64,000 nt of DNA from Labrenzia sp. OB1. Its GTDB lineage: Bacteria > Pseudomonadota > Alphaproteobacteria > Rhizobiales > Stappiaceae. Location: positions 124,001 through 188,000 of the forward strand of contig NZ_JSEP01000002.1 of NCBI RefSeq assembly GCF_001624695.1, written 5' to 3'. Each line of letters opens with the position of its first letter. The first letter of the stretch is position 1. The notes beneath the pieces are model-generated. The model saw only the letters and a list, made by a program, of their open reading frames with translations. It was not told where the DNA came from and searched no databases. This document shows positions 10,673 through 31,612 of the stretch, piece after piece. Both the position numbers and the translations under genes were made by a program.

Positions 10673-11542
10673 ATGTCCTTCGCCCGATTGTGCCGGTCCC
10701 TCGTCAGACCTCTTGTCGCCGGTGCGGTGGTTGCCAGTTGCTGCGCCGCCCTGTTGTCCGGCATGGCCCTGGCGCAGGATACGCAGGTCCGAGTGCCGAA
10801 TTTCTGGGACCCGAAGGCTGTCCACGACCGGCCGGCCGCCATTCCCGACAAGATCCAGTTTCTGGCAACCGACGACTATCCGCCCTTCGTCTTCCGCGAT
10901 CCGCAAGGGCGGCTGACCGGTTTCAATGTCGATCTGGCGCGGGCGCTCTGCCAGGAACTCGGCAGTTCGTGCTCGCTCAGGATCAAGGATTTCGAGGTTC
11001 TGCTTCCGGCTCTCGAGGAAGAGAAAGGCGATGCCATCATCTCCGGCCTTTCCCGCGGTCTCCCCTCGACGCGGAGCCTGAATTTCACCGACGATTATCT
11101 GAAACTGCCCGCGCGCTTCGTCGTGCCGACGGATCAAATCGAGACGTTCGATGAGCAGAAGCTCGCAGACAAGACCATCGCCGTGGAAACCGGCTCGCGC
11201 TATGAAGCCTTCGTGACGCGCTTCTGGCCCGAGGCGAATGTCCTCAGCCTTGAAAGCGAAGCGGCCGCGCGCGAGGCTGTCAGGACCGGAGAGGCCGACG
11301 CGCATTTCGGCGACGGCCTCAGCCTGTCCTTCTGGCTGCCAAGCGTGGCGGCCGAGGGCTGCTGCACGTTTGCGGGCGGCCCCTGGCTGGAAGAGGGGTA
11401 TTTCGACCAGGGCATGGCGATCGTCACCAGACAGAGCGATCCGGAACGCGCCGCAGCGCTCAACTACGCCCTGCGCCAGCTTCACCAGAAGGGCGTCTAC
11501 CGGGAGCTTTACCTCCGCTATTTCCCGCTGAGTTTCTACTAG
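10673..11542 (+). CDS. Family 3 extracellular solute-binding protein (amino-acid ABC type)
   Basis: Periplasmic binding protein of 289 residues. From the ATG at 10673 there is a clear signal peptide: basic MSFARLCRSLVRP, a hydrophobic core, and cleavage expected after ALA at about residues 33-35. The mature part shows the SBP-3 fold: IQFLATDDYPPFVFRDPQGRL, then GFNVDLARALCQELG and DAIISGLSRG. It binds a small polar ligand, probably an amino acid. No permease or ATPase gene is adjacent, so it either serves a transporter elsewhere or acts as an orphan sensor. The TAG stop at 11540-11542 coincides with the left edge of a family A repeat. Confidence 0.85.
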   Translation: MSFARLCRSLVRPLVAGAVVASCCAALLSGMALAQDTQVRVPNFWDPKAVHDRPAAIPDKIQFLATDDYPPFVFRDPQGRLTGFNVDLARALCQELGSSCSLRIKDFEVLLPALEEEKGDAIISGLSRGLPSTRSLNFTDDYLKLPARFVVPTDQIETFDEQKLADKTIAVETGSRYEAFVTRFWPEANVLSLESEAAAREAVRTGEADAHFGDGLSLSFWLPSVAAEGCCTFAGGPWLEEGYFDQGMAIVTRQSDPERAAALNYALRQLHQKGVYRELYLRYFPLSFY

Positions 11543-11688
11543 GGTGTGGACTCATAAATGAAGCCGAAATGGCATCGGAAATGGCGAAACACCGTCAGGA
11601 AGCGTGCGCGGAGCGGCCCCCCTGCCCGGTCAAGCACGCTGACGACACGGGGTGAGGCCATTTTGGCTTCATTTACGAGTTCACACCC
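11542..11688. repeat. Family A inverted-repeat element, copy 1
   Basis: A 147-base element flanked on both sides by TA (11540-11541 and 11689-11690). Terminal inverted repeats are GGGTGTGGACTCATAAATG on the left and CATTTACGAGTTCACACCC on the right. It sits exactly between the stop codons of two convergent genes, each of which ends in the TAG formed at its edge. On the minus strand it contains a frame beginning MASPRVVSVLDR that recurs in copy 3. Confidence 0.8.
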
Positions 11689-12512
11689 TAATCCCTGTCG
11701 GTGGACCGGCGTCTGGAATTCTTGAAGAACGGGATGGACAGGCTGAATAGGAAGGAATGGGCTTTCGGCGTCAAAGCGGGGCCGAGACCGATCTCCATGC
11801 CGTCGTGGCCTTTTTCCGGCTGATCCACATAGGTTCCGAACAAACGATCCCAGAAGGAAAAATAGAAGCCGTAGTTGCTGTCGGTTTCGCGCCAATAGAC
11901 GGAATGATGGACCCGGTGCATGTCCGGTGTCACGATCACGCAACGCAGCAGCCGGTCCGCCCATAACGGGATGCGCAGATTGGCGTGGTTGAAGATAGCC
12001 GAACCGTTGAGCACGATCTCGAAGATCAGCACCGCTTCCACCGGGCCGCCCAGGGCGGCGATCACCAGTCCCTTCCAGATGAAGGACAACAGGATCTCAA
12101 CGGGATGAAATCTCAGCCCCGTGGTCGCGTCGACTTCGCTGTCCGCATGATGTACCCGGTGTATCCGCCAGAAGAGCGGGACCTTGTGCGACATCAGGTG
12201 TTGAAACCAGACAGCGAGATCAAGCGCCACAAATGTGAGCAGCCCGGCGAGCAGGCCCGACAGGCCGAGCAGCGGGAACAGCCCCCAGCCCTTGTCTACC
12301 ACCAGAAGCGCCAGACCGACGCCACCGATCGGGAAGATCAGCCGCACCACAAGGGCATCGAGCAGAATAAGACCCCAGTTGGCCGGCCAGCGTCTCAGGC
12401 GGCCGGATGTCCTTTGCCGCCTCGGCAAGCCCGCCTCCAGCAGCGCCATCAGCAGGAAGATGCCGGCAAAACACGCCATGCGAAGCTGATTGATGTCTAT
12501 CTGGTCAAACAT
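11688..12512 (-). CDS. Sterol desaturase / fatty acid hydroxylase family protein
   Basis: Integral membrane di-iron oxygenase of 274 residues. The histidine motifs are present in order: QHLMSH (HxxxH type), HRVHH, FHPVE, and later MHRVHH. These ligate two iron atoms in this family, which hydroxylates or desaturates sterols, carotenoids or acyl chains. Hydrophobic segments lie at about residues 10-30, 55-80 and 145-165. The substrate cannot be inferred from neighbours. Its stop codon (11688-11690) is formed at the right edge of the family A element. Confidence 0.88.
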   Translation of the reverse strand: MFDQIDINQLRMACFAGIFLLMALLEAGLPRRQRTSGRLRRWPANWGLILLDALVVRLIFPIGGVGLALLVVDKGWGLFPLLGLSGLLAGLLTFVALDLAVWFQHLMSHKVPLFWRIHRVHHADSEVDATTGLRFHPVEILLSFIWKGLVIAALGGPVEAVLIFEIVLNGSAIFNHANLRIPLWADRLLRCVIVTPDMHRVHHSVYWRETDSNYGFYFSFWDRLFGTYVDQPEKGHDGMEIGLGPALTPKAHSFLFSLSIPFFKNSRRRSTDRD

Positions 12513-12624
12513 TGCGTTCTTTCAGCCTTTCGAAGCAAACCTGCTTGCCAGGTCAGCCATGGCTCTATAGGTCGGAAGCATAGCCGTCTATACACCTCCT
12601 GCCTCTGCGACAGATCACATCACC

Positions 12625-13266
12625 ATGAACACCTTTGTCTGGACCCGCCCTGAAACGCCTGTAACTGCAACGCTGCTGCTGGCGCACGGGGCCGGCGCAC
12701 CGATGGATTCCGCTTTCATGAACAAGCTGGCGGCGGCGCTGGCGGCGGAAGGCATTGCCGCCGTCCGGTTCGAATTCGCCTATATGGCCGGCCGCCGCAC
12801 AGGCGGAGCCAAAAAGCCGCCACCGCGCGCGGAAAAGCTGATCGGGGAATTTCAGACCGCCCTTCAGGCCGTAATGAAGGAAACGGACGGCCCACTGCTG
12901 ATCGGCGGCAAATCCATGGGTGGGCGCGTTGCCGCCATGCTGGGTGGTGGAGCTTCCCTGCCCGGCCGCGTGGCCGGTGTCTGCTGTTTCGGCTATCCCT
13001 TTCACCCGACCGGCAAAGCGGACGCCGAGTGGCGGCTTGCGCCGCTGGAAGACGCCAAGCGCCCCGTGCTGATCCTGCAGGGCGACCGCGACCCGTTCGG
13101 TTCAAAAACCGAGCTGGAGGACATCACCCTGCCTGCGCATGTCCGGCTGACTTATCTTGAAGACGGCAACCACGATTTCGGTCCGCGCGGCAGGTCCCCG
13201 GCGACGCTCGACGGCAATATCACCGCCGCCGCCAAGGCTACCGCCGCCTTCGCGCAAACACTTTAG
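12625..13266 (+). CDS. Alpha/beta hydrolase (KANL3/Tex30-like)
   Basis: Cytoplasmic alpha/beta-fold protein of 213 residues of the small KANL3/Tex30-like group. An oxyanion-type LLLAHGAGAPMDS lies near the N-terminus. The nucleophile elbow is GGKSMGGR with the Ser at about residue 97. The acid is probably in LQGDRDPFG and the His in EDGNHDFGPR near residue 188, so the catalytic triad appears complete. The substrate is unknown. It is a single gene between the sterol desaturase and the RND pump. Confidence 0.8.
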   Translation: MNTFVWTRPETPVTATLLLAHGAGAPMDSAFMNKLAAALAAEGIAAVRFEFAYMAGRRTGGAKKPPPRAEKLIGEFQTALQAVMKETDGPLLIGGKSMGGRVAAMLGGGASLPGRVAGVCCFGYPFHPTGKADAEWRLAPLEDAKRPVLILQGDRDPFGSKTELEDITLPAHVRLTYLEDGNHDFGPRGRSPATLDGNITAAAKATAAFAQTL

Positions 13267-13289
13267 GCCCTAATACAAGCCTGACCGGT

Positions 13290-16200
13290 CTACTCCGCCG
13301 GAGTGAGCGCGTGCCCCTTCCCGGGAAGACGCGGTGCCCGCCTCAGGCGGATCAGCCCGCCCAGGTCGTCACCGATCTTGATCAGGGCCGGCACCAGCAC
13401 CAGAACGAGTGCGGTTGCCGATCCAAGACCGAAAACGATCGTGATGGCCATGGGCAGAAGAAACTGCGCCTGAAGGCTTGTTTCGAACATCAGCGGCAGC
13501 AAGCCGCCAATTGTCGTGAGCGATGTGAGCAGCACGGCCCTCAACCGGTCGCAACTCGATCCGATGGCCGCTATTTCCAGATTCTCGCCCGTTGCCCTGC
13601 GCTCTTCGAAACGCGCCACCAGGATGATCGAATTGTTGACCAGGATGCCAGCGAGCCCCAGAAGTCCGATCAGACTGAGAATGGTCAGATTATAGCCCAT
13701 CAGATAGTGGCCGACGATGGCTCCGACGGTTCCGAACGGAATGATGGACATCACCACAATCGGGCGCGCGTAGCTCGCGAAGATCGCCGCCAGGATGATA
13801 TAGATTCCGGCCACCGCCATCAGAACTCCGGTCAGGAGTTCGGAAAAGGCGTTCGACTGTTCCTCCGCCCGGCCGGCGAAGGAATAGTCGAGGCCATAGC
13901 GCTCTGCGAGGTCGGGCAGGAATTGGCTGTCAAGCTCGGCGATGATGCGGTTGTTGGAGGTGACGGTACTGTCAACATCCGCGACGACGGTCACCACCGT
14001 CTGACCGTCCCGCCGCAGAACCACCGAAAATCCCTGCGCGTCCGTCAGATTGACCACCTCGGTCATCGGAACAAAGTCTCCCGCGGTCGTTTTCAGTGAA
14101 AGCTGGCGCAGCGCGGCCGTTCCCTCCTGATCGAACACCTGCTTCACCCGCACGGTGACTTCCTCATCCCCTTCGGCAAAGCGCTGCGCGATACTGCCTT
14201 CAAAGGCGTTGCGGATCTGCCGGGCGGCGCTCTCGACCGTGAAGCCCAGCGCCCGTCCACGCGGGGTCAGTTCCACCACCAATTCGGGCTTGCCGTAAGG
14301 CAGGTCGTCTTCCACGGCGCTTGTGCCGGGAAATCCGGACAGTTCCTGCTGCAGTTCCTGCGCCGCGGCCTTCAGGTCCTTCAGGGACGCACCGGACAGC
14401 CGGATATCAAGGTCGCGGCCAGGAGGGCCACCCCTGCGTTCGGCAATCGCGATCCGCGAGGTGCCGGGAATGGGCGGCACAGCCGCCCGCCAGGCCCGGA
14501 CGATTTCCGGCGTCCTGATTGTTCGGTCTTCCGACAGCGTGAGCTGCACGCTGATATTGGCGACATTGTCTCCGCTGCTGTTGCCCGCGGAGCCAAGCGT
14601 GGCATAGGTGGCGAGCACCAGTTTCTGGTCGCTTCCGGCGGTAAGGCTCTCCTCGGCCTCTGTCAGCGCATCTTCGATCCGAAGAATGGCGGCGATGGCC
14701 TGGTCCTCGGGGATGCCGGCGTGGAAAAAGATCGACGCTGTCAGGTTTTCCGCTTCGGGCGAGGGAAAGAAAGTAAAGCCGACGCGGCCACCGCGCACCA
14801 GACCGACCGCCAGGATCATGGCGGCAATCGCGAAGGCGAGCGTCACATAGCGCCAGCGCACGGCCACCGCCACCAGAGCCCGGAACGGATAGTCCCGCAT
14901 CCAGTCGAAACCCGTGTCGAAGCCACGCCGGAACCATCCGGGCTGATCGTCCGTGTCCTTTGCCTGACGACCGCGGCGCAGCGCCAGCAGAAGAGTTTCG
15001 ACGGCAAGTGCCAGCAGGAAGCAGACAACAACGACGACGACTTCGAACACAAAGGTGCCGGCCGAGTCCTTCAGGCCGCGCAGCGGATCGTCAATCAGGT
15101 CGAGATAGGGCGGCACGGACATGTCCGGCTGCGCGACAAGCGCGCTCAGGAAAAAAGCGGGGGCGCCGGCGATGATGACCACACGCCACCAGTTCCAGGC
15201 CGGTTTTCTGGCAAGCGCATGGGAAAGGTGTCCGGGCAGGACAAGAAAACACTCGACCAGCGACGCGATCACAACGGCCACGACCACGACCGGGAGCGTG
15301 CCCATGATCTGACCGAGAACATCGCCCACCAGCAGGATCGGCAGGAAGGCGGCGATGGTCGTCAGGCTCGCGGCGAAGATCGGCGCCAACATGGTGGTCG
15401 CCCCGTTGACCGCCGCGTCCTGGGGCGTATCGCCCAGGCTCTGCCGGGTTGCCGTATGTTCTCCGACCACGATCGCGTCATCGACGATCACGCCGAGCAT
15501 CATGATCAACGCAAACAGGGAGATCATGTTGATGCTCTCGCCCATAAGCCACATGATGCCGAGCGTCGCCATCATCGCGACCGGAATACCGGCGGCGACC
15601 CAGAGCGCGATCCGGGCATTCAGGAACAGAAAGAGGATGGCCACAACCAGAACCAGTCCGGAGAGACCGTTTTCCACGAGCAGAGAGATGCGCCCTTTCA
15701 CGGCGTCCGCACTCACGTCGTATTTCAGGATCTCGAGCGTCTGCGGCAGTTGCGGGGTGATTTCGGCCAGATAAGCATCGACAATCGCCGCCGCCTTCAG
15801 CGTGTCGGTTTTCTCCGCCCGCAGGATCTGCATTTCAACGGCCCGCGTCCCGCCTGAGAACCCCTGCTTTTCGCTGGAGTCGAAATCACGGACCACGGTC
15901 GCGATGTCTTTGACGAGCGTCTTTTCGCCTGAGGTGAAGGACTTGACCTCCACCCGCCCGACCGCCTCCGGAGACCGGGCTTCGGACAGGGCGCGTATCT
16001 GCCGCTCGACGGCACCGTCGAGATTTCCGGCCGGAAGGTCGGTAGTGTTGCCGGCGATCTGGCTGGAAATATCGGCAACCGTCAGATCCAGACGGTGCAG
16101 TTCCCGCTCGGGAATCTCCACCAGATATTCCGGCGACCTGTAGCCATAGAGCTCGACCTTGTCGATGCCGCGCGCCAACAGATCATCGCGCATCTGGCGG

Positions 16201-16682
16201 GCAAAGACCTTGAGCGCCTGTTCCGAATAGGGCCCGCGCAGGGCCAGGGTCGCGACACTGTCGGTGAACGTCGATGCGGAGACCACCGGTGTTTCACTGT
16301 CGACCGGCAGGGTCGTCACGCCGGACACGGCCTGCTCCACATCGGACAGCGCCTGCTGCATATTGGTGCCTTCGACGAATTCCATCTGGATCGACGCAGC
16401 GCCTTCCCGGCCATAGGAGACGATCTCGTCCAGCCCGTCGATGAACCGCAGTTCCGGTTCGACCACCTCGAGGATATTCGCGGTCACGTCTTCCGCACTT
16501 GCTCCGGACCAGCTGATGGAAACGCTGATCCGGTCGGTCTTGACGGTTGGAAAGAACTGGGTGTTCAGCTTTGCAAGGCCATAGGCCCCGAACAGCACCA
16601 TGACGGCCATGATCAGGTTGGCCGCATTCGAGTGGCGGACGATCTGTTCCAGAATGCCGCGGTTTGTTGCACCTATCGCCAT
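13290..16682 (-). CDS. RND efflux transporter, inner-membrane permease
   Basis: Proton-driven drug/solute exporter of 1130 residues with the two-fold repeated RND plan. TM1 is near residues 20-38, a large periplasmic region follows, and a cluster of helices includes FALIMMLGVIVDDAIVVGEH, the TM4 stretch with the Asp pair needed for proton relay. A second periplasmic domain and second helix block contain GLAGILVNNSIILVARFEE. The sequence looks like the HAE/AcrB-MexF superfamily, with an extended cytoplasmic loop between the halves. It starts 11 bases after the adaptor gene, so both form one operon. No outer-membrane factor gene is adjacent. The substrate is unknown. Confidence 0.92.
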   Translation of the reverse strand: MAIGATNRGILEQIVRHSNAANLIMAVMVLFGAYGLAKLNTQFFPTVKTDRISVSISWSGASAEDVTANILEVVEPELRFIDGLDEIVSYGREGAASIQMEFVEGTNMQQALSDVEQAVSGVTTLPVDSETPVVSASTFTDSVATLALRGPYSEQALKVFARQMRDDLLARGIDKVELYGYRSPEYLVEIPERELHRLDLTVADISSQIAGNTTDLPAGNLDGAVERQIRALSEARSPEAVGRVEVKSFTSGEKTLVKDIATVVRDFDSSEKQGFSGGTRAVEMQILRAEKTDTLKAAAIVDAYLAEITPQLPQTLEILKYDVSADAVKGRISLLVENGLSGLVLVVAILFLFLNARIALWVAAGIPVAMMATLGIMWLMGESINMISLFALIMMLGVIVDDAIVVGEHTATRQSLGDTPQDAAVNGATTMLAPIFAASLTTIAAFLPILLVGDVLGQIMGTLPVVVVAVVIASLVECFLVLPGHLSHALARKPAWNWWRVVIIAGAPAFFLSALVAQPDMSVPPYLDLIDDPLRGLKDSAGTFVFEVVVVVVCFLLALAVETLLLALRRGRQAKDTDDQPGWFRRGFDTGFDWMRDYPFRALVAVAVRWRYVTLAFAIAAMILAVGLVRGGRVGFTFFPSPEAENLTASIFFHAGIPEDQAIAAILRIEDALTEAEESLTAGSDQKLVLATYATLGSAGNSSGDNVANISVQLTLSEDRTIRTPEIVRAWRAAVPPIPGTSRIAIAERRGGPPGRDLDIRLSGASLKDLKAAAQELQQELSGFPGTSAVEDDLPYGKPELVVELTPRGRALGFTVESAARQIRNAFEGSIAQRFAEGDEEVTVRVKQVFDQEGTAALRQLSLKTTAGDFVPMTEVVNLTDAQGFSVVLRRDGQTVVTVVADVDSTVTSNNRIIAELDSQFLPDLAERYGLDYSFAGRAEEQSNAFSELLTGVLMAVAGIYIILAAIFASYARPIVVMSIIPFGTVGAIVGHYLMGYNLTILSLIGLLGLAGILVNNSIILVARFEERRATGENLEIAAIGSSCDRLRAVLLTSLTTIGGLLPLMFETSLQAQFLLPMAITIVFGLGSATALVLVLVPALIKIGDDLGGLIRLRRAPRLPGKGHALTPAE

Positions 16683-16693
16683 GACCCGCTCCG

Positions 16694-18109
16694 TTAGCCG
16701 CCCTGGCTGGTGTTGCCGGTCGCGGCAAGCGGGGCAGCCGTGTCTGGCGCCTCCTGAGCTGCATCGACATCGTTCACAAGCAGGCCGTTGCCTGCTTCCG
16801 GAATACGTGTCGCCAGAAGAGTCTCACCATCCTCGAGCGCGCCTTCCACGAGAATGTAGCCGTCATCGATTGCCAGCGACGTTACTTCGCGCGGCTCAAG
16901 GCGGCTGTCGCGGACCACGTAAACCGTCCCTTCGCCGTAAAATGCCGTTTCCGGAATGCGGAAGCTGTCCCGGTATGCCCGGTCCGACAGCGTCACCTCG
17001 ACGAATGCGCCAGGTCGAAGAGGAATGTCGACCGCAGAGCTGTCGATAGAGGCGATCAGGTCGACGCCGCCGCGCGCGCTGGCGACATCCGCGCCGATCC
17101 GCGTGACTGTTGCCGGATAGGTCACAGGCTGGTTGCCGAGATACCAGGTGACCTGCACAGGACGCCCGGCGACCGTACCGCTTTCTGCCAGGAGGCGGCC
17201 ATACTGGTTGTCCGACAGTGTGAACCGCACCTCGTAGGCGTCACTGCCGTAGAGCGAGACAACCGCATCGTTCACGCCGACGAGCCTGCCGAGTTCGGCG
17301 GCTTCGGAGCGCACGATGGCGTCGAAAGGCGCTTCCAGAACCGTGTTTTCCAGTTGGCGCTGCGCGTTTTCAAGCCGCCACTCGAGACGCTCGATCGCCG
17401 CGTTCTGCTGGACGACCCTGGCTTCTTCCAGGGTCAGGGAGTTCTCGGCCTGCTCCAGTGTCTGCTGCCGCTGGGAGACGAGCAGCTTGCGGTCATCCAG
17501 CGTCTGCTCCGTCACCGTGCCCCTGCCCTGCAGATCCTCGGCCCGCTGAAGGTCCTTGCGGGCAAATTCCAGCTGTTCCTTCGCACGCAGCACGTTGCCG
17601 GTTTCAAGCTTGACCCGGCCTTCACTTTCAACGAGCGCCGCCCGGGCTTCGGCCAGATTGGCCTGCGCCTCGGTCACCGCACCTTCGTAGTCGAAGCGAT
17701 CGATGGCAACGAGAAGCTCGCCCTTTGACACGCCGCCGCCGGCCTTCAGGTTCGGATGAACCTCAACCACCTCGCCGGCGACAAGCGAGCGCAGCTCAAC
17801 CTCTCGCCCGGCGGCCGTCTCGCCATAGACGCTTATTTTCGGCGCGTGGTCGCCACGCGCGAGCGTTACGGTTTCGACGGCGTAGCTTTTTTCCTGGACA
17901 GGTTGCTTGGGAAGATCTGCGCGGGTGGCGACAAGAAGGTTCATTCCCTTGACCGCGCCGAACAGAATGGCGAGTGCCAGAACGGCTTGCAGAACAGCCT
18001 TCATCAGCAGCGCAGTCCGCCGAGAGCGCCTTCGCCCACGCGGTTCGGCGGGCGGTATCACTTCGGAAACGGACTGCTTCCCGGTATCTGACTGTAACGA
18101 CTGCAACAT
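16694..18109 (-). CDS. RND efflux transporter, periplasmic adaptor subunit (HlyD/MFP family)
   Basis: Membrane fusion protein of 471 residues that links the permease to an outer-membrane channel. A short cytoplasmic N-terminus with basic RRRSRR precedes one membrane anchor (about residues 38-58). Then come the lipoyl half-motif (SYAVETVTLARGDHAPKI), a long alpha-helical hairpin (about 145-265, rich in E, A, L and Q heptads), and the returning barrel domains. The C-terminus is low-complexity and rich in A. Upstream of the ATG at 18109 the frame continues to 18178 without a ribosome site. It is first gene of the pump operon. No dedicated regulator is adjacent. Confidence 0.88.
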   Translation of the reverse strand: MLQSLQSDTGKQSVSEVIPPAEPRGRRRSRRTALLMKAVLQAVLALAILFGAVKGMNLLVATRADLPKQPVQEKSYAVETVTLARGDHAPKISVYGETAAGREVELRSLVAGEVVEVHPNLKAGGGVSKGELLVAIDRFDYEGAVTEAQANLAEARAALVESEGRVKLETGNVLRAKEQLEFARKDLQRAEDLQGRGTVTEQTLDDRKLLVSQRQQTLEQAENSLTLEEARVVQQNAAIERLEWRLENAQRQLENTVLEAPFDAIVRSEAAELGRLVGVNDAVVSLYGSDAYEVRFTLSDNQYGRLLAESGTVAGRPVQVTWYLGNQPVTYPATVTRIGADVASARGGVDLIASIDSSAVDIPLRPGAFVEVTLSDRAYRDSFRIPETAFYGEGTVYVVRDSRLEPREVTSLAIDDGYILVEGALEDGETLLATRIPEAGNGLLVNDVDAAQEAPDTAAPLAATGNTSQGG

Positions 18110-18266
18110 TTGCGGCTCACCAGGAACATGGAGGAATGATCTTGCCTGCACACGGTACACATTTGTTTCGCAGCGCAATATTCAAGTCCGGCTTACCGCC
18201 GGAGGCAGCCATTTACATGCGAAAAAGTGTAACAAAACGTGTCTGGCGAGTCTGCAGGGGCAGCAA

Positions 18267-19241
18267 TCAGCCGTCGAACGTGTATCTGGTGTTACAGAAT
18301 TCGCAGGTCACAACGATCTTACCGCCGACCGTTACCTGCCGGATTTCCTCGGCGCTGAAGTTGGCCAGCACGCTTTCGATCTTTTCCCGCGAACAGCGGC
18401 ATTTGTCGGCGAGCGGCTGTGGCTCGTAGAGACGCACTCCGCGTTCATGAAAGAGGCGGAACAGCAGCATTTCCACGCTGACTTCCGGATCCGTCAGCTC
18501 CACATCCTTGACCGTGTCGACCAGCGCCTTGGCTTCCACCCACGCGTCGTCTTCCTCGACCTCGTGCGAGTGCATCCCCTCCGGGGCATCGCCCGGATCG
18601 ATATCGGCCTGTCGCATGCGTTCCGGAGCTTCAGGCAGAAACTGGATAAGGATACCACCCGCCGTCCAGGTCCTGGCGTGCCCTTCCCCCTCCTGGCGGG
18701 TGAAGAGTTCTCCAACACCCAGGCGTACTTCCGTCGGAATCTGCTCGGAGCGTTCGAAATACCGGCGCGCGACGTCTTCCAGGGACACCCCGTCCAGTTC
18801 CACCAGCCCCTGGTAGCGCTGCATATGCTTGCCCTGATCGATGGTCATGGCGAGATGGCCGTGGCCAAGCAACTCTTCGGGCGTTGCCGTTCCTGCCGCC
18901 ATCAGCACTTCGACCCGTTCGGCATCGAATGTCGCACAGGCGCGGATCGCGTCCGGCGACGCAAAATCCACCACCAGCATGGACACCGGCCCATCGGTCT
19001 GGGTCTGGAGCGTGAAGCGGCCGTCGAATTTGAGCGACGTTCCAAGCAGTCCGGTCAGAACGATGGCCTCGGCCAGCAGGCGCGAAACGGGTTCGGGATA
19101 GTCATGACGGCCCAGAATGGTTTCCAGGACGGGACCGAGCGCCACGGCGCGGCCGCGCACATCCAGTCCTTCCACGGCAAAGGGCCGGACAGCGTCCAGC
19201 CCTGCAGGCATAATGCCCAGCTCATCGAGATTCAGTGCCAC
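18267..19241 (-). CDS. hslO: Redox-regulated chaperone Hsp33
   Basis: Cytoplasmic holdase chaperone activated by oxidation together with unfolding. 324 residues. The four zinc-binding cysteines of the redox switch are at C281, C283 (CxC), C313 and C316 (CxxC). The N-terminal domain shows VTGLLGTSLKFDGRFTLQTQ-type beta segments typical of Hsp33. It begins 12 bases after the argF stop, so it is probably the third gene of the argD-argF-hslO operon, an arrangement common in alphaproteobacteria. Confidence 0.95.
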   Translation of the reverse strand: MALNLDELGIMPAGLDAVRPFAVEGLDVRGRAVALGPVLETILGRHDYPEPVSRLLAEAIVLTGLLGTSLKFDGRFTLQTQTDGPVSMLVVDFASPDAIRACATFDAERVEVLMAAGTATPEELLGHGHLAMTIDQGKHMQRYQGLVELDGVSLEDVARRYFERSEQIPTEVRLGVGELFTRQEGEGHARTWTAGGILIQFLPEAPERMRQADIDPGDAPEGMHSHEVEEDDAWVEAKALVDTVKDVELTDPEVSVEMLLFRLFHERGVRLYEPQPLADKCRCSREKIESVLANFSAEEIRQVTVGGKIVVTCEFCNTRYTFDG

Positions 19242-19253
19242 TTTGGCCTTGCC

Positions 19254-23363: not shown

Positions 23364-24062
23364 CTAGGCGGAAACAGTCGTTTCGTCATACTTCACGCGG
23401 TCTTCCGGCAACCGCTCACCGGTCACCATGTAGTAGACGTTCTCCGCGATGTTGGTTGCGTGATCGCCGATCCGTTCGATGTTCTTGGCGCAGAACAGCA
23501 GATGGACGCATTGGGTAATCACCCTGGGATCCTCCATCATATAGGTCAGCAGTTCGCGGAACAGCGACGTGTAGATGGCATCGATCTCGGCGTCGGCTTC
23601 CTGAACGCGGCGCGCCGTTTCCGCATCCTTGCGGGTATAGGCATCCAGGACCTTCTTGAGCTGCGACAGCGTCAGCTCGGTCATGTGCTCGACACCGATC
23701 GCAAGTTTCTTCGATTGCAGGTCGCTGTCGATCGCGATCACGCGCTTGGCGACGTTTTTCGCCAGATCCCCAACCCGCTCCAGATCGTAGGAGATACGGG
23801 TCGCGGCGGTGATTTCACGCAGATCCTGGCCCATGGGCTGGCGGCGCGCGATAATCTCGATCAGCTTGACCTCGACTTCCTGGTGAAGCGTGTCGAGACG
23901 GGCGTCCTTCTCAATCGTTTTTTTGGCCAGTTCCAGATCCTGGGAAACCAGGGCCGAGACGGCATCGGCAAAGGCTTTTTCCGCCAGTCCGCCCATTTCG
24001 GCGACCTTGCCGGCCATTTCCGTCAGCTCCTCGTCATATGCCGAGACTGTATGTTCAGACAT
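23364..24062 (-). CDS. phoU: Phosphate signaling complex protein PhoU
   Basis: Peripheral all-helical protein of 232 residues that couples the Pst transporter to PhoR and restrains phosphate uptake. It has the two repeated three-helix PhoU bundles. The metal-binding segments are visible as RISYDLERVGDLAKNVAKR (about 90-108) and FCAKNIERIGDHATNIAE (about 193-210). It lies 31 bases after pstB in the same operon. Confidence 0.96.
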   Translation of the reverse strand: MSEHTVSAYDEELTEMAGKVAEMGGLAEKAFADAVSALVSQDLELAKKTIEKDARLDTLHQEVEVKLIEIIARRQPMGQDLREITAATRISYDLERVGDLAKNVAKRVIAIDSDLQSKKLAIGVEHMTELTLSQLKKVLDAYTRKDAETARRVQEADAEIDAIYTSLFRELLTYMMEDPRVITQCVHLLFCAKNIERIGDHATNIAENVYYMVTGERLPEDRVKYDETTVSA

Positions 24063-24093
24063 CCTGTGTCCCTTTCAGAGTTTCTGAATTCGC

Positions 24094-24891
24094 TTAGCCG
24101 AAGCGGCCAGTAATGTAATCCTGTGTCCGCTTGTCTTTCGGATTGGTGAAAATATCCTGCGTCGAACCTTCCTCAACCAGGACACCAAGGTGGAAGAACG
24201 CCGTGCGCTGTGACACGCGGGCAGCCTGCTGCATGGAATGGGTCACGATGACGATCGTGTAGTTCTCGCGCAGCTCGTCGATCAGTTCTTCAACCTTGGC
24301 AGTCGCAATCGGATCGAGAGCTGAGCAAGGCTCATCCATGAGGATCACTTCCGGGCTTACGGCAATCGCGCGGGCGATGCACAAACGCTGCTGCTGACCG
24401 CCCGACATGCCGGTTCCCGGCTCATCCAGACGGTTCTTCACTTCTTCCCAAAGGCCCGCCTTTTGAAGACTTGAGGCAACGATGTCGTCCAGTTGGGACT
24501 TGTTGCGGGCCATCCCGTGAATGCGCGGACCATAGGCGACGTTGTCGTAGATCGACTTGGGAAAGGGGTTCGGTTTCTGGAACACCATGCCGACCTTTGC
24601 GCGAAGCTGCACCGGATCGACCTTTGCGTCGTAGATGTCCTCGCCGTCGATCTTGATCGAACCCTCGACCCGGCAGATGTCGATGGTGTCGTTCATCCGG
24701 TTGATGGTGCGCAGGAAGGTCGACTTGCCACAGCCCGAAGGGCCGATGAAGGCGGTGACCGACCGCGGCTGAATTTCAATATCGACGTCTATGATGGCCT
24801 GCTTGTCGCCATAATAAACCTGAACCTTTTTCGCGGAAATTTTGCTTGAAGTCATGGCGCTCGCCTGTTCCAAATTCGGCATCTCGTTCAT
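24094..24891 (-). CDS. pstB: Phosphate ABC transporter ATP-binding protein PstB
   Basis: ATPase that powers high-affinity phosphate import. 265 residues from the ATG at 24891, which is preceded by AAGGAA. Walker A is GPSGCGKST, the ABC signature is MSGGQQQR, Walker B is [12 protein letters not shown], and the switch His is in IVTHSMQQA. An upstream extension of the frame to 25032 lies inside pstA and is rejected. The start is 11 bases after the pstA stop. Confidence 0.96.
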
Positions 24892-24902
24892 CGGATCGTT
24901 CC

Positions 24903-26252
24903 TTACCAGCGGCGTTCGAACCTGCGGCGCAGAATGACCGCGAGAATGTTCATGGTGAGGAGGAACACCAGCAGAATGATGATGCCGCCCCAGGCTTTTT
25001 CGTAAAACGCGTAGTCCGCACGGGCAGCCCACGTGTAAATCTGTGCAGGCATTGCCGAATTCGGCTCGATAAAGCCCGTGATAAAGCCGTCGGGATAGCC
25101 GCGTGCGACAAACCCGACCATGCCGATCAGCAACAGCGGAGCCGTCTCGCCAAGCGCCTGGGCTAGACCGATGATGGTCCCGGTCAGAATGCCCGGCATG
25201 GCCAGAGGCAGAACATGGTGGAAGATGGACTGCATCTTGGAGGCCCCGACCCCGAGCGCCGCGTCGCGGATGCTCGGCGGCACCGCTTTGAGAGATGCGC
25301 GGGTCGAGATGATGATCGTCGGCAGCGTCATCAGCGTCAGGACCAGGCCACCGACAAGCGGCGCGGATTGCGGCAGGTGCATGAACTGGATGAACACCGC
25401 CAGACCCAGAATACCGAAGACAATCGAGGGAACGGCGGCCAGATTGGAAATGTTCACCTCGATCATGTCCGTGAACCTGTTCTGCGGCGCGAATTCCTCC
25501 AGGTAGATGGAGGCCGCGACACCGATTGGCAGCGACAGGAACAGAACAACCAGCATCATGAAGAACGAACCGACGACGGACGCCCCTATGCCTGCGCCCC
25601 CCGGATTATCGACGCCGGAGTCGGCACCGGTGATGAAGTTCCAGTTGAAGACCGTCTTGATGATACCTGTCTCGACCAGCGCATCGACGATGTCGAGGTC
25701 GGATTTTTCCAGGAAACGGCTGTCGGTCAGCGTTTCGCGGGTGACACGGCCGTTCGAATACCCGTCAACCCGCGACGAGGCCGCCAGCTCGAAGGCCGCC
25801 GGTGCGCCGAGAGCCCCCGGATTGGCCTTGAAGTACTCGCGTATCGTGCCGCCGGTCTTGCCGACGATACGTTCGATAGCCTTGGCGTCGAACGGGACGC
25901 TCATACCGCTTTCTTCAAGCTGACCCTGAAGCGCGTTGATAAAGAACTGCTCATAGGCCTTGGTCTTGAAGAGTTCCTTTTCCGCAGCGTCATATTGCTC
26001 CTGCGTCAGCGTGAACTCGACTTCGACAATCGTGCGGGTGAAAGCCGGAATTCCCTCGGAGATGATCGCCGTGGCCAGAACCACGAGGAAGAACAAACCG
26101 ATAAGAACAGCGCCGAGGCCGTAGTATTTGAACCGCTTTTCCGACGCGTTGCGCTTGCGGGTCAGATCGTCGAGCGCGTAGAGCGACTTCGGCTTCGCCG
26201 CGTCTCCGGCCGCTGCCGGGCTGGTCTCGGGAGAAAGAGTTGTGTCAGTCAT
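24903..26252 (-). CDS. pstA: Phosphate ABC transporter permease PstA (long form)
   Basis: Inner-membrane permease subunit of 449 residues, much longer than the roughly 300 of E. coli PstA. The extra length is an N-terminal cytoplasmic part, a first membrane helix near residues 44-66, and a periplasmic insert up to about residue 210, as in the DUF3333-containing PstA of alphaproteobacteria. The permease core (about 215-445) has six helices and the cytoplasmic EAA loop [21 protein letters not shown]. Its ATG shares one base with the pstC stop (TGATG). Confidence 0.95.
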
Positions 26253-27724
26253 CAGTCATACTGCTCCCGGTATTTGCGCACGATGTAGAGCGCGACGATA
26301 TTCAGACCAAGGGTCACCACGAAGAGCGTCATGCCCAGCGCAAAGGCGACCAGTGCCACGGGAGAGGCGAAATCCGCGTCCCCGGTCAGCTGACTGACGA
26401 TCTTTGCCGTTACGGTGGTCATGGCTTCGAAGGGGTTGAGACTGAGCCGCGCGGCCGCGCCGGCTCCGAGAACCACAATCATCGTTTCACCGATGGCCCG
26501 AGAGGCCGCCAGCAGAATTGCGCCGACGATACCGGGCAGCGCGGCAGGAAGGATAACCTGCTTCACCGTCTCGGACTTGGTGGCGCCCAATCCGTAGGAT
26601 CCGTCCCGCATGGCTTGCGGCACCGCGTTGATGATGTCGTCTGACAGCGAACTCACAAAGGGGATCAGCATGATGCCCATGACGAGGCCCGCCGTCATGA
26701 CCGCAGTGCCCGCCTTCATGATCCCCAGCCCGTTATCGCCGAAGACCGACAGCAGCATCGGCCCGACGGTGAGCAGGGCGAACAGGCCGTAAACAATGGT
26801 CGGGATGCCGGCGAGAATTTCCAGCATCGGCTTGGCCACCGCCCGAACCCTTGGGCTGGCGTATTCGGAAAGATACACGGCGGCGAAAAGACCAACCGGC
26901 ACCGCAACAGCGAGGGCGACGAAGGAGATGTAAAACGTGCCCCACAAGAGGGGGAGAATACCCAGCTCCGACGATCCGCCGCGCCCGGAGAAGCTCGGCG
27001 ACCAGGTCAGGCCGAAGAAGAAGTCCATCGCCGGATAGAGCCGGAAGAATTCCACCGTGTTGAAGACAAGCGACAGAACGATGCCGAGTGTTGTCAGAAC
27101 CGCGATCAGGGCGGCACTGAACAGGATGACCTGAATGCCGCGTTCCACGGTGTTGCGCGCCCTGAATTCGGCGCTGGTTTCACGCACACCCCACAACGCC
27201 CCGGCAATTGCCGCAAGAAGCACGACAATGGACATGTAGAAATTGCCGTTCGAGACCATGATCCTGTAGGCCTGCGCGGCACGCATGATCGGCTGCGTGA
27301 TCTGGGACGTAACGATTTGCCCGGCATCCTTGAGGCGGGTGGTGATATCGTTGAAATCGGTGCGCGCATTGCGCGCGAAATCGTCGGTCATCTGCCCGCT
27401 TGCGACGGCGTTTTCGAGCCCTTCGGCGGTACGGCGCACTTCAGCCATCACCAGCCCGAGGGACGAGCCATCGCCGACCGCGCTTTCCGGGATCATGCCG
27501 GAAATGTTGCTGTGCACGACAAACGGCTGCACCAGCAACCAGAGCACAAGGATCAGGAAAGCCGGCACCGCGGCTTTCATCGCCACGTTTGCCCCGTAGT
27601 AGACAGGAAGAGAATGCAGATCCCGCATATCTCCTCCGGCGCTGGCCAGAGCACGCGCGCGCCCTGCAATGTAGCCAACCAGCGCGATGGCAAGCACGAT
27701 CACGACGAGCCAGAACAAGGACAT
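26252..27724 (-). CDS. pstC: Phosphate ABC transporter permease PstC (long form)
   Basis: Inner-membrane permease of 490 residues, the long alphaproteobacterial form of PstC. An N-terminal helix (1-22), a second near 50-68, a periplasmic helical insert (about 75-150) and further helices precede the conserved transport core. The EAA loop reads RDGSYGLGATKSETVKQVILP. It is separated from pstS by a terminator-like hairpin that should lower its transcription relative to pstS, and its end overlaps pstA. Confidence 0.95.
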   Translation of the reverse strand: MSLFWLVVIVLAIALVGYIAGRARALASAGGDMRDLHSLPVYYGANVAMKAAVPAFLILVLWLLVQPFVVHSNISGMIPESAVGDGSSLGLVMAEVRRTAEGLENAVASGQMTDDFARNARTDFNDITTRLKDAGQIVTSQITQPIMRAAQAYRIMVSNGNFYMSIVVLLAAIAGALWGVRETSAEFRARNTVERGIQVILFSAALIAVLTTLGIVLSLVFNTVEFFRLYPAMDFFFGLTWSPSFSGRGGSSELGILPLLWGTFYISFVALAVAVPVGLFAAVYLSEYASPRVRAVAKPMLEILAGIPTIVYGLFALLTVGPMLLSVFGDNGLGIMKAGTAVMTAGLVMGIMLIPFVSSLSDDIINAVPQAMRDGSYGLGATKSETVKQVILPAALPGIVGAILLAASRAIGETMIVVLGAGAAARLSLNPFEAMTTVTAKIVSQLTGDADFASPVALVAFALGMTLFVVTLGLNIVALYIVRKYREQYD

Positions 27725-27756
27725 GTGGTTCCCCGAAAGATTTAAAAATCACACAA

Positions 27757-27786
27757 ATGAAAAGGGGCGGCGGGAATCGCCGCCCC
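27757..27786 (-). terminator. Terminator-like hairpin between pstS and pstC
   Basis: On the minus strand a perfect 9-bp stem (GGGGCGGCG with CGCCGCCCC, five-base loop) followed by TTTTCATTT. It sits 21 bases after the pstS stop. Partial termination here would let the binding protein be made in excess over the membrane subunits. Confidence 0.75.
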
Positions 27787-27807
27787 CCGGATAGAGCCGA
27801 AGCCCTG

Positions 27808-28845
27808 TTACTTCATGGTATCTTCAGCAGCAATGGACGCCTGGGTCGCAGCCAGTTCAGGATCGGCAACAAGGCCGTACTGAGCCAGCGGGCCGCTCGG
27901 GCCTGCGATTTCGTCAGCGACGAAGAACTGGGCATATTCCTTCAGACCCGGGATCACGCCGATGTGCGCCTTCTTGATGTAGAAGAACAGCGGGCGGGAA
28001 ACCGGATACTCGCCGGACGCGATGGATGCCGTGTTCGGAGCCACGTCGCCCATGGTTGCGACCTTCAGCTTGTCGGTGTTGTTTTCGTAGAACGCCAGAC
28101 CGAAGACGCCGATGCCGTTCGGGTTGGAGTCGATACGCGCCAGGGTTTCGGTGTAGTCGCCGTCGATGTCGGTGGACTTGCCGTCCGCGCGAACGTCAAT
28201 GCAGGCGTCTTCAGCGTCGTCTTCCGACATGCCGCTGTCGATCATGGCCTGAAGAGCGCCAGTGGCTTCACAGCCAACAGCCAGAACTTTTTCTTCAAAC
28301 ACTTCACGGGTGCCGTGCTTGGTGCCCGGAATGAAAGCAGCAATACCGACGTCCGGCAGATCGGCGTTGAATTCAGCCCAGTTGTTGTACGGGTTGTCAA
28401 CGATCTCGCCGTCCTTGAGCACCTTGGCACCAAGAGCGTTGAAGATGTCGGCGGGCTGGAAAGCGGTGAAGGCCGGACCGTCTTTCTGGGAAGCGAAGAC
28501 GATACCATCGTAGCCGATGCGGACTTCGATGATGTCCTTCACGCCAGCTTCCGCACAAGCCTTGATTTCCTTCTCGCGAATTTTGCGGGAAGCGTTTGCA
28601 ACGTCGATGGTGTTTTCGCCAACACCTTCGCAGAAGCGCTTCAGACCGGCGGAGGATCCGCCCGATTCCACGACAGGGGTCGGGAAATCGGTGTTTTCAC
28701 CGAAAGCTTCCGCGACGATGGACGCGTACGGCAGAACTGTGGAGGAACCGGCGACCTGAACCTGGTCACGAGCCTGGGCGGCACCAACGAATGCAGTGGA
28801 AGCAACAGCAAGAGCAGTTGCGCTAACGAGGGTCGTAAATTTCAC
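27808..28845 (-). CDS. pstS: Phosphate ABC transporter substrate-binding protein PstS
   Basis: Periplasmic phosphate-binding protein of 345 residues. Translation probably starts at GTG 28845, with AGGGAG upstream; the longer frame beginning at TTG 28869 lacks a ribosome site. A signal peptide (VKFTTLVSATALAVASTAFVG, cut after AQA) is followed by the phosphate-binding loop AGSSTVLPYA. Later segments VVESGGSSAGLKRFC and GTKHGTREVFEE supply further ligands. It is preceded by a four-repeat Pho box, so it should be strongly induced by phosphate starvation through PhoB. Confidence 0.94.
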   Translation of the reverse strand: MKFTTLVSATALAVASTAFVGAAQARDQVQVAGSSTVLPYASIVAEAFGENTDFPTPVVESGGSSAGLKRFCEGVGENTIDVANASRKIREKEIKACAEAGVKDIIEVRIGYDGIVFASQKDGPAFTAFQPADIFNALGAKVLKDGEIVDNPYNNWAEFNADLPDVGIAAFIPGTKHGTREVFEEKVLAVGCEATGALQAMIDSGMSEDDAEDACIDVRADGKSTDIDGDYTETLARIDSNPNGIGVFGLAFYENNTDKLKVATMGDVAPNTASIASGEYPVSRPLFFYIKKAHIGVIPGLKEYAQFFVADEIAGPSGPLAQYGLVADPELAATQASIAAEDTMK

Positions 28846-28928
28846 TTGACCACTCCCTTTGAATGTCAAGGTTTATAATGGATCACCGGGCATGGGGTTG
28901 CTCGAGCGATGCCGGGACCCTAGGCCCC

Positions 28929-28972
28929 ATGGATGAGAGTTCTATGACAGTTATTTTTCAGTTTTATGACAA
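28929..28972 (-). promoter_or_regulatory. Pho box (PhoB operator), four 11-bp units
   Basis: Four consecutive direct 11-mers on the minus strand upstream of pstS: TTGTCATAAAA, CTGAAAAATAA, CTGTCATAGAA and CTCTCATCCAT. The PhoB consensus repeat is CTGTCATAAAT. Units 1 and 3 match best. They fill 44 bases without a gap and end 84 bases before the GTG start. Confidence 0.88.
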
Positions 28973-29144
28973 TTTAAGACGTTGAAATATAAAGGATAAA
29001 ATCATTATTGATGTTTTCATGTCGCGGAATCGGTCGAATTGACGACAATCAGCACCGTGCCCGCGCCATTTGCTTTCCGCGTGCGCAGACGTCCGTCTCC
29101 AGAACATCCCGCTTTGTAGTGCAGGAAAAGGACGGGTCGTCCCA

Positions 29145-29213
29145 GGGTACGGACTCATAAATGAAGATGAAATGGTTTGAGGCGGATTGGTCCTCCTCAA
29201 ACCATTTCCGCCC
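29145..29213. repeat. Family A inverted-repeat element, copy 2 (short)
   Basis: A 69-base copy. The left end GGGTACGGACTCATAAATG is full, while the right end lacks the matching ACTCATAAATGAAGATG block. The inner arms AAATGGTTTGAGG and CCTCAAACCATTT form a perfect 13-bp hairpin that could end phoR transcription. The phoR TAG stop lies at its right edge (29213-29215). Confidence 0.75.
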
Positions 29214-30592
29214 TAGTCGTGGCTTCCAACGTGGGGAGGCATTGATTTGGACTCAATCGGCTGATCGGTGCTTTCAAGTGCCGGAAGTTTCACCTTGAAA
29301 GTCGCGCCCTTGCCGGGATCGCTCTCGATGTCCAGGCGTGCCCTGTGCCGGGTGAGGATATGCTTGACGATCGCAAGGCCCAGACCCGTGCCTTTCAAGG
29401 CGCGGCTGGATTCGACATCGATGCGATAAAACCGTTCCGTAAGCCGCGGCAGATGCTCCGGTGAAATGCCTTCGCCGTAATCCCGGACGGACAAAACCCA
29501 GGACGGCGCGTCGTCCGTGTCTGTCTGCTCCTCCAGCCTCACATCCACATATTTGCCGACGCTGCCATATTTCAGCGCGTTCTCGATCAGGTTTTCAATC
29601 ACCTGAATGAGTTCGTCCCGGTCCCCCTTCACACGGACGGGTTTTTCCGGCGCCTGGATGCGAATTTCGACGTCAAGATCCACCGCAAGAGGTGTCAGCG
29701 CGTCCTTGGTATGACGGACGATCTCGGATAGGTCCACGACGCTTGCCGGCCGGACATTGGCCTTGAGTTCGATCCGGGAGAGCGACAGGATATCGTCGAT
29801 CAGACGCCGCATGCGGCCTGCCTGATCCAGCATGATCGCCAGAAACCGGTCCTGCGCCTCCGGGTCGTTGCGAGCCGGCCCCTGAATTGTTTCGATGAAG
29901 CCGGTCAGGGACGCCAGTGGCGTTCGCAGCTCATGGCTGGCGTTGGCGACAAAGTCCGTTCGCATACGTTCGAGCCGACGGTTTTCCGTCAGGTCCTGAA
30001 TGACCACCAGAATGAAGTCCGGGCGACTGTGCTGGCGTTCCTGGTCGCCGGAGCCGGGCATGTAGATCGGCGCGATGTGAGCCTCGTACCAGGTTTCGGT
30101 CGGCACCTTCTCGATCCAGTTGATCCGTTCCGTGCCGCCTGTGCTGCAGACGCGGTCAAATGCTTCCAGCAAGGACGGCGCACGCAGGGAAAAGGACAGT
30201 GGGTCACCTGGTTTCACACCGCTGTAAATGACCTGCGCCCGCGCATTGACATAACGGGTTATTCCACGGCCATCGGCCACGAAGCATGGGGATGGCAGCG
30301 CATCGACAGTCACCTTCATGCCGGTGCCCGGCCACATCCTGCGGATCTCCCGCTGCGCTTTCAGCTTGACCCTGCGGCTGGACGACCGCCGTGGGATCAG
30401 CGCTGCCACGACAACCAGAGCAGCAAGGCCGGCTGCCGCGGACAAGATCGGAACATCAAATGCAAAAACGCCATAACCCGCAGCACAGAACGCGGTGACG
30501 AGAATCCACCGCGCCTCGCTTATCCGCGTGAGCGGTGATACGGCGGCCTGCGCCTCGGCAGTTTCCTCGAATGGCGATGGGGATTCAGTCAT
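29213..30592 (-). CDS. phoR: Phosphate regulon sensor histidine kinase PhoR
   Basis: Membrane-bound sensor kinase of 459 residues that phosphorylates PhoB when PstSCAB-PhoU signals low phosphate. Two membrane helices (about 28-46 and 48-66) are joined by a very short loop, so there is no periplasmic sensor. A PAS domain lies at about 95-205, the H-box SHELRTPLASL has H220, and the ATPase domain has the N box (IENLIENALKYG), G1 (VRDYGEGI) and G2 (GTGLGLAIVK). It is upstream of pstS in the same direction, separated by a family A element and the Pho box, so it probably has its own promoter. Confidence 0.93.
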   Translation of the reverse strand: MTESPSPFEETAEAQAAVSPLTRISEARWILVTAFCAAGYGVFAFDVPILSAAAGLAALVVVAALIPRRSSSRRVKLKAQREIRRMWPGTGMKVTVDALPSPCFVADGRGITRYVNARAQVIYSGVKPGDPLSFSLRAPSLLEAFDRVCSTGGTERINWIEKVPTETWYEAHIAPIYMPGSGDQERQHSRPDFILVVIQDLTENRRLERMRTDFVANASHELRTPLASLTGFIETIQGPARNDPEAQDRFLAIMLDQAGRMRRLIDDILSLSRIELKANVRPASVVDLSEIVRHTKDALTPLAVDLDVEIRIQAPEKPVRVKGDRDELIQVIENLIENALKYGSVGKYVDVRLEEQTDTDDAPSWVLSVRDYGEGISPEHLPRLTERFYRIDVESSRALKGTGLGLAIVKHILTRHRARLDIESDPGKGATFKVKLPALESTDQPIESKSMPPHVGSHD

Positions 30593-30779
30593 GGATACTT
30601 TGAGCGATTACCTGCGAGAAATGTCCGCCACGAAGGAAAGATACTATTTCGACGTCTTGGTAAAGGCGCAAGACCGGAAACAGGCTATCGGAGCGTCGGT
30701 GGACCCCTTCCCTAACACAGGAAGCATGTCATCCAAACGACAGCGCGACCCTGAGTTGCGGATGGGGGCACACGGACCA

Positions 30780-31259
30780 CTAACGCGAGCCTGCGCCGCG
30801 GGCGGCCTTCTGAAGATTTTCAACGATGCGGGGCCAGCCATCGGGCCGGCACATGAAGTTCAGATACTCCGAGCCGTGCTCGCCATGCCGCAGGAATTCA
30901 TTGTGGACGATCTCAAGTCGCGTCGATTCCCCTGCGCCGCGAAAGTTGATCATCACACGGCTCGCCGCGGCGGGATCGGCGATTTCCCTGCCGTCCAGGG
31001 ATACCTGCCAGGCCAGGCGCACATACAGGGGGCTTTCGATCGAAAGCACAGTTCCCCAGATCCGCCGATGGCCCTGACCGTCCGTTTCATAGCAACTGCC
31101 GCCGGCGAAAGGTTCGATTTCCGCATCCAGTTCGCCAGTGTCCGGTACATCGAAGGGGGAGACCCACCACAGAACCGGTCGGTCGACGACCAGCGAAAAC
31201 GCCTGGTCACGCGGCAGGTTCAGCACGCCTTCAAAGCGGCATTCCGTTTCGTCTGCCAT
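30780..31259 (-). CDS. SRPBCC/AHSA1-family protein
   Basis: Cytoplasmic protein of 159 residues with the START-like (Bet v1) fold. Segments LPRDQAFSLVVDRPVLWWVSP at the N-terminus and a closing GWPRIVENLQK helix are typical of AHSA1-type polyketide-cyclase-like proteins. These usually bind a hydrophobic ligand. No catalytic residues can be assigned. It is a single gene between phoR and a family A repeat. A second, distantly similar SRPBCC gene lies at 38240-38728. Confidence 0.78.
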   Translation of the reverse strand: MADETECRFEGVLNLPRDQAFSLVVDRPVLWWVSPFDVPDTGELDAEIEPFAGGSCYETDGQGHRRIWGTVLSIESPLYVRLAWQVSLDGREIADPAAASRVMINFRGAGESTRLEIVHNEFLRHGEHGSEYLNFMCRPDGWPRIVENLQKAARGAGSR

Positions 31260-31348
31260 GGCCCCCTCAAAAATATATTCAGATCAGCTCCCGCCAACAG
31301 CTTCCCATAGAAGGGCTACGGTTGGCAAAGCCGGGCTTCCCTACCCTA

Positions 31349-31612
31349 GAGCGTAAACTCCTAAATGAAGATGAAATGGTTTGAGGCGATTTGGTCTTCA
31401 TCAAGGAGCGAAAGCGCAGGAAATGTGTTTCATTTTCAAACCTTTCGCGACGCAGAGGAGGACCAATCCGGTCAAATCCGAAGGACATGAAAATGGCTTC
31501 ACCCCATGTCGTCAGCGTGCTTGACCGGGTACGAAGCCCGCTCATCGCACGCTTCCTGCCGGGGTTCCGCCATTTCCCATACCATTTCGTCTTCATTTAT
31601 GAGTTTACGCCA
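31349..31612. repeat. Family A inverted-repeat element, copy 3 (long)
   Basis: A 264-base copy between TA dinucleotides (31347-31348 and 31613-31614). The ends are GAGCGTAAACTCCTAAATG and CATTTATGAGTTTACGCCA. The right 120 bases are closely similar, in reverse orientation, to copy 1. On the plus strand they carry a frame MASPHVVSVLDRVRSPL...FIYEFTP that parallels the one in copy 1. The left part resembles copy 2 (AAATGGTTTGAGG). Confidence 0.8.

Follow-up and report, generated by a model that had tools for sequence, protein, structure and literature searches.

What are the three related repeats that lie within a 64,000-nucleotide stretch of the Labrenzia sp. OB1 genome (contig NZ_JSEP01000002.1, positions 124,001 to 188,000; the whole stretch is called the window here), and what in them, if anything, is kept? 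A sequence-only reading had described them as resembling miniature inverted-repeat transposable elements (MITEs) with a shared internal reading frame, and re-reading of the sequence confirms the repeats at 11542-11688, 29145-29213 and 31349-31612. They belong to a non-autonomous transposable element with a fixed plan of about 264 bp. It has been found in Alpha-, Beta- and Gammaproteobacteria, and the number of arm matches in a genome ranges from one to about 90. Within TA flanks, each end of the element is a terminal inverted repeat (TIR) of about 31 bp, and between the TIRs lie arm X, a mini-hairpin and, in inverted orientation, arm Y.

The family is spread through the window's own genome (6.0 Mb; G000). 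DNA searches with copy 1 and copy 3 gave 37 and 49 matches, respectively, which hand merging reduces to 32 separate places at E<=0.01, far more than chance would give; several are short TIR-like pieces only. The family is not limited to three copies. A 14-mer of the TIR, allowing up to two mismatches, matched this genome 56 times compared with 22 for the reversed pattern. The full element measures 264 bp between two TA dinucleotides and has long TIRs, the commonest form of which in G000 begins GGGCGTAAACTCATAAATGAAG. TA also flanks many full copies that were located by TIR alone; the TIR finder used later demanded TA flanks, hence its output is no evidence for TA. Matches at E<=1e-4 were found in 15 of 61 related genomes (own included), all in the same genus. 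In one relative, G011, the orthologous sites of copies 1 and 3 both lack the element, the TA having diverged at these empty sites. The copy searches, the TIRs and the sites without the element support the earlier description of a MITE-like, TA-flanked and non-autonomous element present genome-wide: it is short, bears TIRs, contains no transposase gene and has many copies.

One-arm and smaller deletion derivatives also exist in the family. Genome G020 carries, at the locus orthologous to the copy 1 site (L223), a 46-bp hairpin derivative consisting of two TIR ends with almost nothing between them. A second subfamily in G000, G011 and G016 (L354, L358-L362 and L364) has the same TIR type and 264-bp plan with other arm sequences, which suggests that arms and ends exchange or evolve independently.

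A pattern scan of named genomes for the exact core AAATCCGAAGGACNNNNAAATGGC returned at least 114 stretches, and the hosts among the matches listed are Roseibium, Stappia, Sphingorhabdus, Novosphingobium, Sphingopyxis and other sphingomonads. The core pattern also lies on a contig labelled Candidatus Zambryskibacteria (L185), possibly through wrong binning. In the sphingomonad copies the TIRs and the stem sequences are quite different, yet the length (263-264 bp) and the position of the core are the same. Among 116 elements with a TA-flanked TIR, 90 measure 262-265 bp, the finder having chosen an inner TA in many others; 57 further core matches (up to three mismatches, many by chance) have no TIR by the finder's test.

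When folded, the element is closed by a helix of its TIRs, inside which lie two arms and a mini-hairpin of 3 bp; the second arm repeats the first in inverted form. The arm motif reads AGGAG-stem-GCA-stem-loop-stem-AA-stem-GACG, with variation. Eight arms from different genomes have different stems but agree without exception at AG.AG, GCAG, AA and CGACG, although only AG.AG and CGACG are an unselected result, these arms having been picked by equal spacing and a GC-/AA landmark. Among 24 diverse copies the stems covary, with 62 of 103 pairs changed on both sides while pairing is kept. Paired cells make up 89.1%, compared with 36-44% when partners are slid, a comparison that gives the structure an advantage since it was derived from one of the 24 sequences.

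Two arms were resolved in 39 of 42 elements examined, namely the 24 alignment rows and 18 of 29 loci matched by a covariance model of the full element (R1), the latter from 11 genomes in other genera; excluded were five copies from the own genome, four loci that were cut or misplaced, and the weak matches L276 and L277. By RNA energies, all 39 elements have a first arm that is more stable on the forward strand, and 37 of the 39 have a second arm that is more stable on the reverse strand. With DNA energies the first arm prefers the forward strand and the second the reverse strand in all 39, with one near-tie. G-U pairs counted by arm order in the 24 copies number 58 forward versus 22 reverse in X, and 29 versus 62 in Y. 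Selection on the RNA strand of the whole element had first seemed rejected, no G-U excess being seen, until the mirror arms were counted apart. A K-turn reading of the GA/GA loop was dropped, as the fold gave no support. Searches against Rfam gave no match at gathering score in sets of nine and 11 loci; at E<=5, four loci gave only a neighbouring tRNA and five matches below gathering scores.

The reach of the element was assessed with R1 and with a model built from the eight arms, TIRs excluded (R2); E-values are rough. Of 385 alphaproteobacterial genomes, 15 (the own genome among them) have an R1 match, and they represent 15 of 277 genera; these matches include one with a single arm only (G075, L274), one partial (G380, L275) and two that are weak and off-plan (G403 and G435, L276 and L277). 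At E<=1e-3, R2 matches 39 of 398 Pseudomonadota genomes: the own genome, one of the same family, three of the same order, 13 of the same class and 21 of other classes. TIRs were sought around 27 best-hit loci of the 38 other genomes, two of which had flanks too short to use. A TIR score of at least 16 was found around the arm in 23 of the 25 loci with full flanks, and 21 of those 23 span 262-276 bp, a measure that counts any paired flanking bases; 50 control points scored at most 14. The 13 loci outside the window's own class include 11 with a strong TIR, 10 of them of the expected span. Both arms are detected at E<=0.01 in 14 of 57 loci, several of them sharing a genome, always plus then minus and with starts 103-108 bp apart.

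Searches of plasmid records by blastn gave members in Pseudoalteromonas, Variovorax and Vibrio, partial members in Phyllobacterium and Novosphingobium, and a Halomonas match covering 43% of the query. The two-arm plan is present in all four that were folded (Vibrio campbellii, Pseudoalteromonas shioyasakiensis, Variovorax paradoxus and Phyllobacterium sp. 628), and all four records match R2 with E from 3e-5 to 2e-14; the Vibrio TIR score is only 14, equal to the top of the controls. In the 14 genomes or records searched for R2 matches, counts include 91 in G012, 51 in G016 and 14 in G000. At E<=0.01, R2 has no match in Sinorhizobium meliloti pSymB or in G270, a phage search with one Pseudoalteromonas-like member returned no match, and neither did a plasmid blastn search with L270.

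The features of the window read as follows, with the arm boundaries of copy 3 set by analogy with element L002.

11540 to 11541, no strand: left TA of copy 1 (from the sequence and the list of open reading frames, ORFs)
11542 to 11688, + strand: copy 1, a one-arm element of 147 bp in which the X arm of full elements is missing
11542 to 11572 and 11658 to 11688: TIRs of copy 1, 31 bp each
11573 to 11657, + strand: single arm of copy 1, Y-type, with the motif orientation on the + strand
29145 to 29213, + strand: copy 2, a deletion remnant of 69 bp
31349 to 31612, + strand: copy 3, a full two-arm element of 264 bp, with TA at 31347-31348 and 31613-31614
31349 to 31379, + strand: left TIR of copy 3, 31 bp (from the sequence; helix 1 of the family covariation)
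31380 to 31476, + strand: X arm of copy 3 (R2 match at 31392-31464, 64 bits, E 7e-16)
31477 to 31485, + strand: central mini-hairpin TCC-GAA-GGA of copy 3, between the arms (from the sequence and family folds)
31486 to 31581, - strand: Y arm of copy 3, the same motif inverted (from family evidence, the - strand folding better in the family)
31582 to 31612, - strand: right TIR of copy 3, 31 bp (from the sequence)

Copies 1 and 3 are each bounded by TA on both sides, as had been claimed, the right-hand TA of copy 1 lying at 11689-11690. The arm region of copy 1 is 87% identical to copy 3 over 115 bp and 87-89% identical to other full copies. Copy 2 retains an intact left TIR together with a short palindrome, and its right end is rearranged; CA replaces TA on its left, and TA follows at 29214-29215. 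In the family the better fold of the X arm is on the + strand in copy 3 numbering.

The edges of the copies meet neighbouring genes. At the left edge of copy 1, TA and the first G of the element make up the TAG codon at which the upstream gene (10619-11542) stops, and at its other edge TA and the terminal base close a facing fatty-acid-hydroxylase-like gene. The edge of copy 2, again TA with the terminal base of the element (29213-29215), supplies the stop codon of a histidine kinase gene (29213-30592, - strand). Elsewhere, a one-arm element at L284 (1501-1671) ends a few bases from a tRNA gene (1676-1749).

Insertion sites were surveyed at Roseibium-type and sphingomonad loci, where 88 of 116 sites were usable, the others having short flanks or being duplicates; genes were called by a simple ORF rule. 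Viewed as empty sites, 47 of the 88 have a stop codon within 30 bp, compared with 18.9% of 971 YTAR sites drawn at random from that DNA. Only 12 of the 88 lie inside an ORF, versus 42% of the random YTAR sites. Orientation against tandem genes is even (21 versus 19, a count from a gene-context scan with artificial stops).

From these comparisons we propose a non-autonomous element helped by insertion sequences (ISs) of the IS5 family, in which the arms may be kept as functional folded single strands, and we give this proposal about an even chance of being right. Our inference is that an arm acts in a folded, single-stranded form, and that this form is most likely RNA belonging to a read-through transcript. 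Should single strands be what matters, RNA is a slightly better than even prospect, single-stranded DNA during replication or transposition has a smaller but appreciable likelihood, and any other form is improbable. In the proposed mechanism, IS5-family DDE transposases would move the element in trans and the arms would fold as RNA inside read-through transcripts; because the arms are mirrored, one arm would be correctly folded in a transcript of either direction. The internal loops of the arm (GCA/AA and GA/GA) would then be bound by a host factor that is conserved throughout the phylum, and this binding would render insertions near gene 3' ends tolerable or useful.

Several observations weigh against this proposal. 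The 39 elements are related and are not independent tests, and the weak model matches L276 and L277 do not fold to plan. Over the whole element G-U pairs do not exceed A-C mispairs (62 versus 74; 1666 versus 1878), an outcome that would follow from cancellation between two mirror arms if these are strand-specific. When counted within groups, the bias of the arms is weak and mixed (X 30 G-U versus 21 A-C; Y 11 versus 24), with the X arm of group C and the Y arm of group B showing the opposite bias. The G-U excess in the preferred folds (226 versus 92) is partly built in because the preferred strand is the more stable one. In the window, R2 at E<=1 reports neither the copy 1 arm nor the Y arm of copy 3, which are the window's Y-type arms, and no promoter- or terminator-like site was found in copy 3. 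The exact TA is not kept at the empty sites of G011, which are regarded as diverged because TA reads TG at the copy 1 site and is unrecognisable at the copy 3 site. The position near gene 3' ends can be mere tolerance. Additionally, no helper with exactly matching ends was found in the same genome.

The folded form may instead be single-stranded DNA, a whole-element cloverleaf on the lagging strand or in transposition that a replication or transposition protein recognises. In 32 of 39 elements the central loop reads GNA on one strand. GNA loops are known for stable DNA hairpins, and this loop favours single-stranded DNA over RNA and so also counts against the proposal above. The strand preference of the arms under DNA energies, the folding of many copies as one closed structure from TIR to TIR and the small number of G-U pairs are further points for a DNA fold. 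However, RNA accounts as well or better for the tendency to lie near gene 3' ends and for the arm-wise G-U bias, and IS5-type DDE transposases are thought to act on double-stranded ends. We consider the DNA form a doubtful alternative, with perhaps a minor share of the probability.

An ordinary IS5-derived MITE would require no function at all, its palindromes being kept paired by template switching or gene conversion and its numbers arising by rapid amplification from few masters. Template switching is known to correct palindromes, and the broken pairs within groups resemble neutral decay, without a strand bias over the whole element and with a mixed bias of the arms; the TIRs of both ends also change together. 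Homogenisation, however, gives no strand preference, whereas the arms are mirror-ordered in 39 of 39 and 37 of 39 elements. Likewise, AG.AG and CGACG are invariant in the eight arms though the stems differ, and length and arm spacing are equal across classes. We regard a functionless MITE as unlikely.

The helper of our preferred proposal was sought through the element's ends. TA-flanked inverted ends were looked for at 31 IS5-type loci, of which 12 (two being one place) gave elements of 833-842 bp. The IS5-type ends include GGCTTCAGACTCATAA (G000, locus L025, found without the TA requirement), GGATGCGGACTCATAAA (G024) and GGCTCAGGACCTATTAATT (G029), the last of which resembles the end GGGTCAGGACCTATTAAAT of the sphingomonad element. 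The IS5-family ends of the genus and the ends of the element have in common a pattern of the type TA-GG-N6-ACTCATAA. The best end match, 16/17, is between an IS end of G024 (L245) and the end of a decayed copy in G000 (L070), the main copies not being identical. The IS5-type transposase of G000 matches PF13340 and PF01609/PF13586. From the ends we infer that DDE transposases of IS5-family elements probably move the element in trans. GACTC, an instance of the CcrM methylation site GANTC, occurs in many TIRs (e.g. those of L036 and L038) and IS5 ends; it is absent from the commonest G000 TIR and from the ACCCAT forms.

The sequence-only reading had suggested IS630/Tc1-mariner-type mobilisation from the TA flanks. 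The flanks themselves hold, and 16 of the 18 places in the genome with PF13358 pass the curated cut-off, as mobilisation by IS630-type rather than IS5-type transposases would lead one to expect. However, matching inverted repeats were found at none of 15 IS630-type loci (of the 18 places), most of which are cut by contig ends, so that this negative says little, whereas the IS5 loci, with their 833-842-bp elements and PF13340 plus PF01609/PF13586 transposases, carry the same end pattern as the element. An IS630-type helper is thus less well supported than an IS5-type one, and we think it quite unlikely.

The frame MASP..FIYE.TP noted in copies 1 and 3 is indeed common to both. It had been left undecided whether this was a by-product of DNA similarity or a product of selection; it is a by-product, and a coding frame was rejected on the synonymous count and the stops. 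The test used 89 of 90 full-length copies (one has no recognisable start), 84 of which entered the change counts. Synonymous changes make up 64 of 201 distinct changes over four groups (fraction 0.318) versus about 55 (about 0.275) expected as the sum of per-group expectations, which is near the neutral rate and no clear excess. A protein-coding MITE with a frame kept by selection would account for the frame being open in most copies of group A (10 of 12) and group C (14 of 16) but can be all but dismissed, as the frame is open in only 14 of 33 group B and none of 28 sphingomonad copies (stops in 19 of 33 and 28 of 28) and the synonymous fraction is so close to expectation.

We compared the element with known small repeats through their descriptions, not their sequences. 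PMC2229807 describes ERIC/IRU, Correia (NEMIS) and RUP as small, intergenic, transposase-free repeats of about 100-200 bp with TA ends and stable stem-loop transcripts, each listed for one bacterial group. ERIC is defined by a consensus of 127 bp. The element is likewise small, lacks a transposase and has TA at its ends; unlike ERIC, Correia and RUP as described, it measures 264 bp and has two inverted arms, recurring internal loops and TIRs that vary freely between lineages. CIR of Caulobacter and Brucella (Chen and Shapiro 2003, as cited in PMC2229807), an alphaproteobacterial intergenic repeat, has in the same review an RNA model of two arms and a linker; the review lists it as lacking TIRs and as carrying GANTC at a terminal loop. 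The element shares the two-arm form with this alphaproteobacterial repeat, but has long TIRs. The RIME and AB/C motifs of rhizobia, mentioned in PMC2573895, are multi-copy palindromic intergenic elements. The element resembles them in these respects and in its occurrence in Alphaproteobacteria; R2 has no match at E<=0.01 in pSymB of S. meliloti. With IS5-family MITEs it shares TA and a TIR pattern like that of the genus's IS5-family elements. Normally the ends of a MITE are those of one IS and its interior is free; here, in contrast, the interior recurs and the ends vary. No description of the element was found in the open-access literature, subscription papers and ISfinder lying outside the scope, and a prior description is possible.

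Bacterial MITEs are usually viewed as IS fragments with free interiors, whereas the interior of this element recurs across a phylum and its ends turn over. This recurrence suggests that the non-coding DNA itself carries a function. The copies may form a phylum-wide superfamily defined by an inverted, strand-specific hairpin pair rather than by its ends; it would be a mobile device of RNA or single-stranded DNA in which TIRs are swapped or co-evolve with local helpers while the 264-bp architecture stays fixed, a view that in our judgement could as easily hold as fail; if true, it would imply a binding partner conserved in Alpha-, Beta- and Gammaproteobacteria. The covariance model is available to annotators for elements that are unannotated in the records examined. 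As the arm has a definable motif and strand, the partner can be sought biochemically, and, if found, it would explain the persistence of an element that encodes no protein in so many genomes.

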